37,888 nucleotides of DNA from an uncultured Clostridia bacterium (GTDB lineage: Bacteria > Bacillota > Clostridia > UBA1212 > UBA1255): positions 1 to 37,888 of the forward strand of contig CANQOI010000020.1 of NCBI GenBank assembly GCA_947625435.1. The letters run 5' to 3'. Made by a program: the position numbers and the translations under genes. The notes beneath the pieces are model-generated. The model was not told where the DNA came from. It ran no database searches and saw only the letters and a list, made by a program, of their open reading frames with translations. Shown in pieces: positions 16,905 to 32,630 of this stretch (position 1 is its first letter; every line of letters starts with the position of its first letter).

Positions 16905-17786
16905 TTATTTCGAAATAAGATACTCGATTATACGCTCGCGTTCATCTTCGGAATAATATTCGATCGTTATCTTCCCTTTGCCGTTATCATCGCTGAGTAT
17001 AACCTTTGTGCCGAGCCGCGAACGCAGCTCATCCTGAACATGAGCTATTTCCTGCTTAAGAGTCTCATCCGCCGGCTTTTCGCCTTTGTCTTTTTTATCC
17101 TTTTTCCCTCCGGAGGCCGTCAGTTTTTTTACATACTGCTCCGCCTGTCTCGAATTCATATCGTTCTTTACTATGTGATCCGCCGCTTCCGACTGAACAT
17201 CCGGGCGTTCGACAGCGAGCAGCGGCCTTGCCTGTCCCACTGAAATCTCTCCGCTAATAAGGAGCTTCCTGATATCCTCCGTAAGATTCAACAGTCTCAG
17301 TGAATTTGCTATGGCCGGACGGCTTTTGCCCACCACGGAAGCTATCTGTTCCTGCGTCATGCCGTACTCCTTAATGAGTCTTTCATACGCTTCCGCTTCC
17401 TCTATGGGATTCAGATCCTCTCTCTGAATATTTTCTATAAGGGCAAGCTCCGTTATTTCCTTCGGAGACGCATTTCTCTCTATTACGGGAACTGTCTTCA
17501 GTCCCGCAAGCCTTGCCGCTCTCCAGCGCCTTTCTCCCGCAATGATATGATATGTACCTTTTTCCTTTGTAACTATGATAGGCTGTATTATTCCGTGCTC
17601 TCTGATCGACTGCGCGAGAGCCTCGGTCTTATCCTTATCGAAATTTTTTCTGGGCTGTCCTTTGCCCGGTTCCACGCTGTTTATATCAACTTCGATCACA
17701 TGACCGTCTTCATTTACATCATCAAGCTGTTTGTCCGTTATTAATGCTCCCAGCCCTTTTCCCAATGCCGATCTTTTCACTGCCAT
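16905..17786 (-). CDS. parB: Chromosome partitioning protein ParB (Spo0J)
   Basis: This 293-residue protein binds parS and, as a CTP-dependent clamp, spreads on DNA and loads SMC. Visible features are the N-terminal ParA-stimulating segment (KRSALGKGLGALI), the CTP-binding motif AGERRWRAARLAG, the ENIQREDLNPIEEA motif, and the helix-turn-helix MTQEQIASVVGKSRPAIANSL. A Lys-rich linker and a C-terminal dimerisation domain complete it. The helix-turn-helix carries ParB-type residues (Arg in GKSR, Ser in ANSL, Gly in SVGQAR), unlike the Noc paralogue at 31623-32630. It lies 23 bases after parA, with two perfect parS sites just upstream of that gene. Confidence 0.97.
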   Translation of the reverse strand: MAVKRSALGKGLGALITDKQLDDVNEDGHVIEVDINSVEPGKGQPRKNFDKDKTEALAQSIREHGIIQPIIVTKEKGTYHIIAGERRWRAARLAGLKTVPVIERNASPKEITELALIENIQREDLNPIEEAEAYERLIKEYGMTQEQIASVVGKSRPAIANSLRLLNLTEDIRKLLISGEISVGQARPLLAVERPDVQSEAADHIVKNDMNSRQAEQYVKKLTASGGKKDKKDKGEKPADETLKQEIAHVQDELRSRLGTKVILSDDNGKGKITIEYYSEDERERIIEYLISK

Positions 17787-18597: not shown

Positions 18598-18613
18598 TGT
18601 TTCACGTGAAACA
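18598..18613. other. parS site 1 (ParB-binding palindrome)
   Basis: TGTTTCACGTGAAACA is a perfect 16-base palindrome identical to the Bacillus subtilis parS consensus. It lies in the gyrB-parA gap, in the leader of parA. ParB should nucleate here and slide outwards. Confidence 0.97.
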
Positions 18614-18639: not shown

Positions 18640-18655
18640 TGTTTCACGTGAAACA
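18640..18655. other. parS site 2 (ParB-binding palindrome)
   Basis: This is a second perfect copy of the same 16-base palindrome, 42 bases centre to centre from site 1 and 13 bases after the gyrB stop. The near-integral number of helical turns places both sites on the same face of the DNA. Confidence 0.97.
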
Positions 18656-20943: not shown

Positions 20944-22074
20944 TCACACGACATGACCGCTGTTTATATTAAAAAAGCGTATATTTCTGTCTTTTATATG
21001 CACGGAATCCATATCGGTGCATGAAATGAAAGCCTGAACATCGCCTATATTTGACACAAAAGCTCTCCTTCTGTCCTCATCAAGCTCCGAGAGGACATCG
21101 TCAAGGAGCAATACGGGCTTTCTTCCGGAAATTTTTTCCGCCGTCTCAAGCTCCGCAAGCTTTACGGATAATACCGCCGTTCTTATCTGACCCTGCGAGC
21201 CGAACTTTCTGAGATCACAGTCATTTAATCTGAATTCTATATCATCTCTGTGAGGGCCGTACAAAGCCGTCTCTCTTTCAATTTCTTTTGCTTTTCTCTC
21301 GTTCATGAGCAGAAGAAGCTCATTTTCAATACTTTTCTTATCTTTAAAATCTACGATATCGCATGAAACATCAGTTTTATATAATAATGTCAGATTTTCT
21401 TCTTTTTTTGAGCTTCTGAAAGATATGTTCATATTTTTACGTGACGCAGTCTCGCTTATGATATTTATAAATTCGTATCTGGCGGATATCACAGATGACC
21501 CGGCCTCCGAAAGCTGCGCGTTCCATACACTCAATATATCGTCATACTCCGATATCTTACCGTATTTTATACTTTTAAGAAGATTATTTTTCTGAAAAAG
21601 TATCTTATTATATTTTATAAGATCAAAATAATATGTGGGTCTTATCTGACTTATGGCAATATCCATGAATTTTCTCCTTACCGACGGGCCTTCCTTTATG
21701 AGATTCATATCGTCGGGTGAAAATATAACAGAAAGCATGTTTCCCATAAGCTGTCCGAGCTTCCGCAGATACAGACCGTTTACTTTAATAAATTTTTCTT
21801 TATTTTTATTGTAATTTATATAAATTTCTTCTGTGATGTCATTTTTCACCGAAGTGATTATTTTAAAATGATCTTTATTATCAAAATTCGTTATGATATC
21901 GGCGTCTTTTGTATTTCTGAAGGATTTTCCTATAGTATTGTAATATATGGCCTCTATGAGATTTGTCTTACCCTGTCCGTTATTTCCGTAAAAAACATTA
22001 ACATCATTGGATAATCCGATATCCAATGATGTATAGTTTCTGAAATTTTCTATTATAATGCGGTCAATATACAT
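20944..22074 (-). CDS. recF: DNA replication and repair protein RecF
   Basis: The protein is 376 residues long. It is an SMC-like ATPase that helps load RecA at gaps. It shows Walker A (YGNNGQGKTNLIEAI), the ABC signature region (FGSQGQIRTAVLSVKLAE) and Walker B (VLLLDDVLSELDEDR). I place the start at 22074 because MYIDRIIIENFRNY is the family N-terminus. That ATG shares one base with the dnaN stop (TAATG), so the two are translationally coupled. The small S4-domain gene (rlbA/yaaA) often found between dnaN and recF is absent. Confidence 0.96.
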   Translation of the reverse strand: MYIDRIIIENFRNYTSLDIGLSNDVNVFYGNNGQGKTNLIEAIYYNTIGKSFRNTKDADIITNFDNKDHFKIITSVKNDITEEIYINYNKNKEKFIKVNGLYLRKLGQLMGNMLSVIFSPDDMNLIKEGPSVRRKFMDIAISQIRPTYYFDLIKYNKILFQKNNLLKSIKYGKISEYDDILSVWNAQLSEAGSSVISARYEFINIISETASRKNMNISFRSSKKEENLTLLYKTDVSCDIVDFKDKKSIENELLLLMNERKAKEIERETALYGPHRDDIEFRLNDCDLRKFGSQGQIRTAVLSVKLAELETAEKISGRKPVLLLDDVLSELDEDRRRAFVSNIGDVQAFISCTDMDSVHIKDRNIRFFNINSGHVV

Positions 22075-23183
22075 TATTTGGATGTTATCTTTCCCGGCAT
22101 CACGATATATCTGAATGTCTTGTCCTCCGCACCGGTTATAACGCACGGTCCGAGCGGATGTGTGAGCGATATTATTATATTTTCATCTTCTATCGCTTTA
22201 AGACAATCAAGCATTACTCTTATATACATGCCGAATTCGATCTCATCACCCGTGATCTCGGCATTTATCTTTTCTTTTAAAGTACCGTTTTCCGCATTTA
22301 CATGCAGCATTATGCTGTCGTCACTCGTCATTTTAATAGTAAGAGGATATTTTCTCTCATCGACTATCACAAGAGACGACCTTTCAAAAGATGCTATCAA
22401 TGCCTTATTGTTCACGACACAAGTGGTCTTGTATTCATTGGGGAACATTTTACGGTAATCTATATATTCTCCTTTATACAGCTTCGATACCATCCTGAAT
22501 GTGTCGCAGAAGAACATTATCTGATTGTCGTTGCAGCAGAAATGTATTACTGAATCGTCGCCTTTAACAGATTTAGAAAGCTCATTCAATATCTTTGTGG
22601 GAACGACTATACCGAACTCTCTCGTATCGTCTACACTCACGGCTTTCTTTGCCAGCCTGAATCCGTCTATGGCCACAAAGCTGAGCTCTCCGTTTTTCTG
22701 CTCCATGAAAACGCCTCTGAGTATAGCTCTTTTTTCCTCCTGAGGTGCAGCCGCGAATGCCGTCTGCCTTATAAGATCTACGAGAGTATTCTCTTTTATA
22801 TCGTATGAAACGGCTGTATCCAAAAATGCCACGGGAGGATAGCTTTCGGTAGAATATGTCTTTATCTTATAATCCGCATTTCCGCTGGTAATAGACAGCA
22901 TCGAGCTGTCATTAAGCGTCTCAAGAGTGACATATATATCGGGAAGCTTTCTTACTATGTCTCCGAATGTTTTGGAATTGACTACGATGCTTCCTATCTC
23001 TTCTATTATAGCGGGTATCTCATATACTATACCGAATTCGTTGTCGTTGCCAGTGAGTCGCACCTCTTCGCCTACCTCGATCAGTATCCCCTGTAAAATC
23101 TCCGTTGTTGTCTTGGACGGTACGGCCTTCTGTACTATGTTGATACCGCTTATCAGATTATCTCTGTTGCAAGTTAATTTCAT
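22074..23183 (-). CDS. dnaN: DNA polymerase III sliding clamp (beta subunit)
   Basis: The protein has 369 residues and forms the ring that tethers the replicative polymerase to DNA. The N-terminus MKLTCNRDNLISGINIVQKAV and the C-terminal hydrophobic-pocket segment near LTHPLGPCVITGAED are typical. I chose the start at 23183 because a strong GGGAGG site lies 7 bases upstream and the family begins there; an in-frame ATG 13 codons earlier has no such support. The stop overlaps the recF start. Confidence 0.96.
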   Translation of the reverse strand: MKLTCNRDNLISGINIVQKAVPSKTTTEILQGILIEVGEEVRLTGNDNEFGIVYEIPAIIEEIGSIVVNSKTFGDIVRKLPDIYVTLETLNDSSMLSITSGNADYKIKTYSTESYPPVAFLDTAVSYDIKENTLVDLIRQTAFAAAPQEEKRAILRGVFMEQKNGELSFVAIDGFRLAKKAVSVDDTREFGIVVPTKILNELSKSVKGDDSVIHFCCNDNQIMFFCDTFRMVSKLYKGEYIDYRKMFPNEYKTTCVVNNKALIASFERSSLVIVDERKYPLTIKMTSDDSIMLHVNAENGTLKEKINAEITGDEIEFGMYIRVMLDCLKAIEDENIIISLTHPLGPCVITGAEDKTFRYIVMPGKITSK

Positions 23184-23220
23184 TGTATTGTCCTCCCGAA
23201 AAGTTTTGTATGCATGTATC

Positions 23221-23226
23221 ATTATA
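23221..23226 (-). promoter_or_regulatory. Probable extended -10 element of the dnaN promoter
   Basis: On the minus strand this reads TATAAT preceded by TG one base away (extended -10). No good -35 is visible: the equivalent position 17 bases upstream falls inside the DnaA-trio run. Transcription would start about 30 bases before the dnaN ATG. Confidence 0.6.
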
Positions 23227-23239
23227 ACATATTTCTCTT

Positions 23240-23257
23240 TAGTAGTAATAGTAGTAG
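23240..23257 (+). other. DnaA-trio element
   Basis: Six trinucleotides TAG TAG TAA TAG TAG TAG are followed directly by GGGGC and a DnaA-box-like TGTGGAAAC. In Bacillus subtilis such repeats next to a DnaA box guide a DnaA filament onto one strand to open the duplex. Confidence 0.85.
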
Positions 23258-23325
23258 GGGCTGTGGAAACTGTGTAAAACCTCTTTTTTTGTTTTATTTA
23301 AGACAAGTCTGCTTATTGATAACTC

Positions 23326-23334
23326 TGTGGATAA
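23326..23334 (-). other. DnaA box, perfect match
   Basis: The plus strand reads TGTGGATAA, the complement of TTATCCACA. Confidence 0.93.
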
Positions 23335-23344
23335 CCGTTGAAAA

Positions 23345-23353
23345 TTATCCACA
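23345..23353 (+). other. DnaA box, perfect match
   Basis: TTATCCACA on the plus strand, facing the box at 23326-23334 with a 10-base gap. Confidence 0.93.
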
Positions 23354-23414
23354 ATTTCCACAGGTAAAATATTTTCAAAAATTTTCCACTCGTTTTCCAC
23401 AAGTATTTTTCCAC

Positions 23415-23423
23415 TTATCCACA
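23415..23423 (+). other. DnaA box, perfect match
   Basis: TTATCCACA, 21 bases before the dnaA stop and next to the near-match TGGGGATAA at 23430-23438. Confidence 0.93.
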
Positions 23424-23443
23424 AAAAAATGGGGATAAGCGGA

Positions 23444-24805
23444 TCATACGATTATATTCTTCTTAAGCTCGTCCATTATGTGTTTAAGCTCAGGATTGCT
23501 TTCGACCTGTTTTGCTATCTGATCGCACGCGTACATAACGGTGGTGTGATCCTTGTTGAATGCCTTTCCTATGTTGGGGTAAGACATGTCCGTGAGACTC
23601 TTGCATAAAAACATGGATATCTGTCTCGGAAATACCAGCTCCTTGGTCCTTTTTTTAGAAAGGATATCTTCTACGCTCAGGTTGAAATATCTTGAAACAC
23701 TGTCTATTATAACGCTTGAATTGATCTCGTGCACGTCGTTTGTCTGATAATGCTTCAGTGCTTCCTTTGCGAGATTGAGAGTTATCTCCTTACCCTGCAT
23801 GAGAGATATAGAAAGATGATTTATGACGCCCTCAAGCTCTCTTATGTTGTCGCTTGTATAATAAGCGATATAATCGAGTATCTCATTGTCTACGTCTATG
23901 GAATTCTCGGAGGCTTTTCTGTTAAGGATAGCGACCTTAGTCTCAAAGTCCGGAACCTGTATGTCAACTATGAGTCCCCATCCGAACCTTGTCCTTAAAC
24001 GGTCTTCAAGCACTTCTATCTTATTGAGAGGGCTGTCGCAGGATATGACTATCTGTTTCTTATCCTCATACAGAGTGCTGAATGTGTAGAAAAACTCCTC
24101 CTGAGTCCTTTCCATTTTTGAAATGAACTGAATGTCATCTATCAAAAGAACGTCTATCTTTCTGTATTTGTTCCTGAATTCATTGTTCTTCTTGTTGGCG
24201 ATAGCTTCAATAAATTCATTCGTAAAAATTTCCGATGTAACATACAGTACCTTTTTGGTAGGATCGTTCTGCACGATCTGATTTCCTATCGCGTGCATGA
24301 GGTGAGTTTTGCCGAGACCGGAATTTCCGTATATGAACAGCGGGTTATATGAATTTCCGGGAGAATCGGATATGGCAACGGCTGCGGCGTAAGCCATCCT
24401 GTTGCTGTTACCTATGATAAAAGAATCAAAAGTATACTTGGGGTTCAGATTGGACTTGAACGGCTCCTTGTCCGTATAATGTGAAGACGTATATGCATAA
24501 TCGGGCTCCGTGTTCTTTTTTGATTCGGGCGTATATTCGCTCTCAACATGAAACGCCAGAGTCAGATACTGATGTGTCTCTTCAATAAGTACATTCTTAA
24601 TATCATTGTAATATTTAGTCTCAACCATATTAATACAAAATTCAAAAGGTACAGTAAAATGAGCAGTCTCATCACGTATCTCGACAAGCTTAAGGGGAGA
24701 AATATACGTGTCAAAATGAAGAGAAGATATAGTTTTCTTAAGTTCTTCTTTGCAATTATCCCAGATTTTACACAGTTCTTCCCCGCCGTAACGATGAGTT
24801 TCCAT
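23444..24805 (-). CDS. dnaA: Chromosomal replication initiator DnaA
   Basis: The protein has 453 residues. Domain I (about 1-85) is followed by a variable linker, the AAA+ domain with Walker A at 160-167 (GNSGLGKT) and Walker B (VLLIDDIQFI), and the C-terminal DNA-binding domain with DHTTVMYACDQI, the DnaA-box-reading signature. It binds the boxes in the adjoining gaps and opens the origin. A GGAGG site precedes the ATG. The gene is followed by the origin and then dnaN, the order usual in Bacillota. A long (about 115 base) leader separates the likely promoter from the start. Confidence 0.98.
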   Translation of the reverse strand: METHRYGGEELCKIWDNCKEELKKTISSLHFDTYISPLKLVEIRDETAHFTVPFEFCINMVETKYYNDIKNVLIEETHQYLTLAFHVESEYTPESKKNTEPDYAYTSSHYTDKEPFKSNLNPKYTFDSFIIGNSNRMAYAAAVAISDSPGNSYNPLFIYGNSGLGKTHLMHAIGNQIVQNDPTKKVLYVTSEIFTNEFIEAIANKKNNEFRNKYRKIDVLLIDDIQFISKMERTQEEFFYTFSTLYEDKKQIVISCDSPLNKIEVLEDRLRTRFGWGLIVDIQVPDFETKVAILNRKASENSIDVDNEILDYIAYYTSDNIRELEGVINHLSISLMQGKEITLNLAKEALKHYQTNDVHEINSSVIIDSVSRYFNLSVEDILSKKRTKELVFPRQISMFLCKSLTDMSYPNIGKAFNKDHTTVMYACDQIAKQVESNPELKHIMDELKKNIIV

Positions 24806-24956: not shown

Positions 24957-25029
24957 TAGCCTGATTTTGACAGAAAACCGGACTGAAATCAGCAGATTTA
25001 CAACTTTTTGTATGCCTGTGGAAAACGTC

Positions 25030-25043
25030 CACAACATGTTGTG
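25030..25043. repeat. 14-base perfect palindrome between dnaA and rpmH
   Basis: CACAACATGTTGTG reads the same on both strands. It abuts an inverted TGTGG/CCACA pair and a copy of ATTTTAC (25044-25050). It is probably a protein-binding site; the protein is unknown. Confidence 0.7.
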
Positions 25044-31622: not shown

Positions 31623-32630
31623 ATGAATCGTGTTCTAATGCATGAAGCAATCAACGACGGACCGGGACGGGATTACATTACTGAGATCCCGGCTAACAGA
31701 ATAAAGGCGAATCCGTATCAGCCGCGCAAGGAATTCTCGAGGAGTGCGCTATATGATCTGGCAAATTCAATAAAAGAGTACGGCATTTTACAGCCTATCA
31801 CCGTAAGGCCCATAAGAGGGGAGAATACATACCAGCTCATTGCGGGCGAGCGTCGGCTGAGAGCGGCAAAGATCGCGGGACTCTCCACAGTACCGGCCAT
31901 AGTTTATAACGCCTGCGACCATGACGCCGCCGTGATAGCGCTCATTGAAAATTTACAGAGGGAGAATCTCAGCTTCCTCGAAGAAGCTGAGGGCTATTAC
32001 AGTCTGCTCACGGATCACGGCATGACCCAGGAGGAAATAGCGCATAAGGTGGGCAAGAGCCAGTCCGCTATCGCAAACAAGGTAAGGCTTCTGAAGCTCC
32101 CGCCCATGGTGAAGAAGATACTGTGCGACAACAAGCTTTCGGAGCGCCACGCACGCGCTCTGCTCCGCATGTACGACGAGCAGCTGCAGCTCAAGGCTTT
32201 GAAAATAATATGCGAAAGGCACTGCAGCGTTAAAGAGGCGGAGGAAATAATCGACAGACTCATTGAAGAGCACAACAAAAAGAACGGGATCCCCGGCTGC
32301 GTGCCGCTGCAGCTTTCTCAGGGCCAGTCCGGAGCGGCCGCTGCATCCGCCGCGGACTTTTTGTCGGGGCGCGATAATATACAGAAGAGCAAAAAGGGGA
32401 ATGTCAAATTCGTTGTGCGCGACATCAAGATATTCGTAAATACGATCAAACAGACCGTTTCTCTCCTGAAACGGTCGGGCGTGGAGGCAAAGGCCGCCCA
32501 GTTCGACAGGGGAGATTATTATGAATTTGTGATAAGGATACCTAAGCAGGCGAACGGGCTCGTTATAAACGGGGGCATAGAAGCTTCGGTAAGAGGCCCG
32601 TCACTGCTCACCGAGAAGGGCGTGATATAA
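31623..32630 (+). CDS. noc: Nucleoid occlusion protein Noc (ParB paralogue)
   Basis: This is a 335-residue ParB-like clamp. It shows the CTP motif AGERRLRAAKIAGL, ENLQRENLSFLEEAEG, and a helix-turn-helix with GKSQSAIANKVRLLKLPP followed by LSERHARALL. Gln, Lys, Lys and Arg at the four specificity positions are those of Noc rather than ParB (compare 16905-17786). Bacillus noc also follows rsmG, which supports the call. Noc blocks septation over the nucleoid. The first residues (MNRVLMHEAINDG) do not look like the strong amphipathic membrane helix of Bacillus Noc, so membrane binding is uncertain. parA does not follow; gyrA does. Confidence 0.88.
   Translation: MNRVLMHEAINDGPGRDYITEIPANRIKANPYQPRKEFSRSALYDLANSIKEYGILQPITVRPIRGENTYQLIAGERRLRAAKIAGLSTVPAIVYNACDHDAAVIALIENLQRENLSFLEEAEGYYSLLTDHGMTQEEIAHKVGKSQSAIANKVRLLKLPPMVKKILCDNKLSERHARALLRMYDEQLQLKALKIICERHCSVKEAEEIIDRLIEEHNKKNGIPGCVPLQLSQGQSGAAAASAADFLSGRDNIQKSKKGNVKFVVRDIKIFVNTIKQTVSLLKRSGVEAKAAQFDRGDYYEFVIRIPKQANGLVINGGIEASVRGPSLLTEKGVI

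Follow-up and report, generated by a model that had tools for sequence, protein, structure and literature searches.

Does the gap between dnaA and dnaN in an uncultured Clostridia genome carry the element at which its chromosome is opened for replication? We examined this in a window of 37,888 nucleotides (the whole stretch of DNA analysed, contig CANQOI010000020.1), where the original prediction had placed a complete DnaA-trio unwinding element. Our analysis identifies the element, with a probability of about 93%, as the basal unwinding system (BUS) of the chromosomal origin in this Clostridia-class genome; it is an ordinary BUS, a textbook example of a known mechanism. Both flanking genes lie on the − strand, dnaA at 23444-24805 (453 aa) and dnaN at 22074-23183, with its start ATG at 23183, where the dnaN starts of relatives align; a longer dnaN reading frame from 23222 is a mechanical call only. 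A possible dnaN ribosome-binding site lies at 23192-23197, and the rnpA-side genes are found on the + strand, past dnaA. The cumulative GC skew reaches its minimum in the interval 23001-24000, at the dnaA-dnaN boundary, and the window holds eight TTWTNCACA boxes versus 1.94 expected, five of them inside 23271-23423. The gap, the skew minimum and the box cluster, all read from sequence, point to the chromosomal-origin location that the published BUS rules (PMC8287927) ask for.

Other features of the neighbourhood were observed in passing. Two perfect 16-bp palindromes, TGTTTCACGTGAAACA, lie at 18598-18613 and 18640-18655, between a ParA-like gene and gyrB, and we take this sequence to be the parS consensus. 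Judging from the translations, a protein that looks like a ParB-family member is encoded at 16905-17786 and a second one at 31623-32630 (+), across dnaA; the latter is possibly a Noc-like paralogue. In the region upstream of dnaA, the palindrome CACAACATGTTGTG at 25030-25043 recurs with at most two mismatches in seven relatives (G001-G004, G007, G008 and G013), and some other relatives have an inverted DnaA-box pair in its place.

The heart of the element is a run of six DnaA-trios, TAGTAGTAATAGTAGTAG, at 23240-23257 on the + strand, with letters and coordinates as originally predicted. The BUS rules call for at least three consecutive trios of the form 3'-NAN-5', with 3'-GAT-5' preferred; numbered from the box side, trio #4 is TAA (3'-AAT-5') and the other five are GAT. 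Read in the orientation of dnaA, the order is TTTTACACA GTTTCCACA GCCC CTA CTA CTA TTA CTA CTA, the AT-rich strip, GGGAGG and the dnaN ATG. A GC block does adjoin the trios, as proposed, but the GGGGC named in that proposal includes, as its first letter, the final G of trio six (counted along the + strand), and the spacer proper is 4 nt long (GGGC on the + strand, 23258-23261). The DnaA-box-like 9-mer described at 23262-23270 is also present; overlooked was a second box, at 23271-23279, that abuts it in the same orientation. Both are on the − strand: the proximal box, GTTTCCACA, differs from the consensus TTATCCACA at two positions and reads TGTGGAAAC on the + strand, and the distal box, TTTTACACA, reads TGTGTAAAA. 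The BUS rules place the boxes within 16 nt of the trios and allow up to two mismatches in a sole or better site and up to four in its partner; here the pair TTTTACACA and GTTTCCACA begins 4 nt from the trios. Closer to dnaA, consensus boxes TTATCCACA occur at 23326-23334 (−), 23345-23353 (+) and 23415-23423 (+), along with the box TTTTCCACA at 23393-23401 (+) and the box-like sequences ATTTCCACA at 23354-23362 (+, two mismatches) and TTATCCCCA at 23430-23438 (−, one mismatch).

The strip at 23203-23239, which separates the array from the dnaN ribosome-binding site, is 76% AT, which bears out its predicted AT-richness. Within the gap, the 40-mer of lowest stability (23217-23256) links this strip to the trios, and only 65 of 37,849 such 40-mers are less stable, so the easily melted, AT-rich neighbour expected of a BUS lies directly beside the array. 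A scan of 23150-23460 for a dnaN promoter in the AT strip detected no promoter-like site on the − strand.

The proteins that would act on such an element are encoded in the same genome. Aligned to B. subtilis numbering (E 1e-117 to chain 8btg_A), the window's DnaA keeps N187, I190, R202, E223, E228 and R264, so that the guanine contacts, the adenine contacts and the arginine finger are all retained, and the cognate DnaA has the trio-binding pocket that the BUS rules look for apart from two sites: K222 is aligned to Met, the residue just before it being Lys, and Lys also stands in place of N196. These two substitutions and the two mismatches in the proximal box count against the BUS reading. 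A DnaB_2 (DnaD-type) protein is also encoded in the genome, and five in-phase TnnT motifs lie on the − strand, across from the trios.

Taken together, these features suggest a mechanism in which DnaA would bind the abutting box pair at 23262-23279 and contact the GC spacer, after which an oligomer of ATP-bound DnaA would extend along the + strand from 23257 down to 23240, so that a single trio falls between one protomer and the next. The oligomer would strip the + strand off its partner and so open the AT strip that lies toward dnaN, and the exposed − strand (CTACTACTATTACTACTA), with its five TnnT motifs, may provide a seat for a DnaD-like loader. Sequence, place, uniqueness, conservation, the DnaA pocket residues and the DnaD-type protein come from this genome; binding, direction, opening and loader recruitment are modelled on B. 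subtilis and C. difficile. Anatomy and conservation support the original prediction that the strands open toward dnaN and that DnaA coats the + strand, and both the direction and the coated strand would follow by analogy with the B. subtilis cryo-EM structure.

We also compared the array among relatives, since conservation of the trio phase had been named as a check on the prediction. All four congeners examined carry six trios, without interruption and in the same phase. Among the 15 other genomes of the family, 13 gave a DnaA match; the G013 contig stops short of the array, which leaves 12 readable gaps. Ten of these keep at least five trios in phase: in nine, five or more CTA/TTA trios follow one another without a break, and G005 has five and one broken (CAA at #4). 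The pattern is lost in G007 and G008, which belong to one genus. A wider comparison added order, class and phylum samples to the named relatives; 276 loci were read and another 16 dropped out at the motif filter, 249 loci were unique, and 182 of these passed the box-plus-array threshold. The window's 18-nt array was the commonest (26/182) in this sample, a non-random one in that similarity to a query peptide determined the ranking of a large part of it. The distance from proximal box to first trio was 4 nt in 161 of the 166 arrays with a usable proximal box, and a GC spacer is no more than a tendency, the congener spacers being GATA or GACA. As a side observation, the DnaA proteins of G002-G005 (L084, L085, L086 and L090) have Thr in place of Asn187, and their trios are canonical except for the broken one in G005. 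A special conserved role for trio #4 was considered and rejected: CTA occupies this position in 45 of 182 arrays versus 100-148 at the other positions, but the signal was lost once the loci were collapsed to 37 lineages (20 observed versus 21.1 expected, with a value this low in 2049 of 5000 permutations) by single linkage, a coarse grouping that lumps many Clostridia together.

Slippage can produce triplet runs and this one sits in the dnaN leader, so it might in principle be a chance microsatellite, or a feature of that leader, with no role in origin opening. We regard this as very improbable, as the perfect six-trio TAG/TAA run occurs once in the 2.03 Mb genome (the reversed-pattern control gave none), a TAR repeat of six units occurs once in the window and in none of 100 dinucleotide shuffles of it, and the same phase and 4-nt spacing to the box pair recur across the compared loci. 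A more substantial alternative is that the element works but depends in addition on another box cluster, located upstream of dnaA, in which case the origin would be bipartite and the 68 bases originally called complete would not be. This is the arrangement in C. difficile, which is described as needing both regions in vitro (PMC7561715), and the upstream region here does have a box, TTTTCCACA, at 25017-25025, next to the conserved palindrome described above. However, within 700 bases that region holds a single box that departs from the consensus at no more than one position (degenerate boxes fall outside this count), and the corresponding 700 bases of the congeners G002-G004 have none. A C. 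difficile-like bipartite origin is thus not evident, since the rpmH-dnaA region has one near-consensus box, and we consider it unlikely.

Under the favoured BUS reading, the likely start point, the opening direction and the DnaA-coated strand would be fixed for an uncultured genome. The wider value lies in the relatives, where natural variants of the guanine-reading residue occur with altered trios and would offer a handle on the base-capture model. G007 and G008 (L093 and L094), from another genus of the window's family, have a DnaA with Ile202 and Val227. In the conserved register and after an intact box pair, their arrays read ATA TTA TCA CTA TCA TCA and ATA TTA TCA CTA CCA CCA, respectively; G008 is the weaker evidence because its dnaA match contains one stop. 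An unrelated genus in another family of the class, represented by G209 and G416 (L261 and L262), has Ile202 and Ile227 with the array TTA TTA TTA CTA TTA TTA, whereas in the Arg202 congeners all 15 loci fetched begin with two CTA trios and contain three to five CTA in total. Guanine-first GAT trios have thus nearly disappeared from both Ile202 lineages, the array shifting from mostly 3'-GAT to mostly 3'-A-first. In three of the four genomes #4 is the sole G-first trio, and the single intact GAT of G008 is also at #4.

It is possible, though we hold it with less than even confidence, that the trio code co-evolves with the base-capture pocket of DnaA (Arg202 to Ile, Glu227 to Val or Ile, and the shift in the array). 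Co-evolution is suggested only, because guanine-poor arrays also occur with Arg202. A strict coupling of Arg202 to guanine was rejected: where residue 202 is Arg or Lys, 20 of 179 arrays contain no more than one CTA, as do 5 of 27 of a second locus set, one Arg202 locus (L027) has a nearly inverted array, and family f207 (L298-L300) combines Arg202 and Glu227Val with nearly all-TTA arrays. Family f101, with Glu227Val and Arg202, has kept its CTA trios. With about one lineage in nine guanine-poor, two of two would arise by chance about once in 80, an estimate that ignores phylogeny and concerns a lead found after looking, and two Ile202 events are too few to settle the coupling. Among the literature matches listed, nothing relevant on trio-DnaA co-evolution appeared, and, within the papers searched, DnaA-trio and Arg202 occurred together only in PMC10721633, the cryo-EM paper. 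If the co-evolution is real, the Ile202 lineages would be natural specificity mutants of origin opening, with one such genus inside the window's own family.

Finally, the element can be set against the known systems, among which a BUS is reported for 1755 of 2070 origins (PMC8287927). In the original prediction the order was likened to that of B. subtilis, and the likeness holds for order, strand, spacing, trio number, place and conservation. The incC BUS of B. subtilis, as described in excerpts of PMC6669920 and PMC10721633, shares with the window tandem co-oriented boxes, a short GC spacer, six trios, an AT-rich flank and the dnaA-dnaN gap. The trio that stands out from the rest (3'-AA) occupies #3 in B. 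subtilis and #4 in the window, and the two DnaA proteins differ at N196 and at K222, the latter essential in B. subtilis. PMC10721633 describes a cryo-EM structure in which six trios engage seven DnaA protomers. The protein captures two bases per trio, the first and the second: Arg202 and Glu228 contact the guanine, and Asn187 contacts the adenine. The same source reports that all-AA trios impair wild-type B. subtilis and suggests that homologues of DnaA might recognize other single-stranded sequences. The 18-nt array in oriC2 of Clostridioides difficile (PMC7561715, in part) is letter-identical to that of the window (CTACTACTATTACTACTA) and lies in the same dnaA-dnaN gap, which DnaA opens in vitro with both origin halves present; upstream of dnaA lies a box-rich oriC1 in C. 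difficile, whereas the window has a single near-consensus box there. In B. subtilis, DnaD recognizes a TnnT element (PMC10201434, in part), and the window's five in-phase TnnT motifs, together with the DnaD-type protein, may allow similar binding here.
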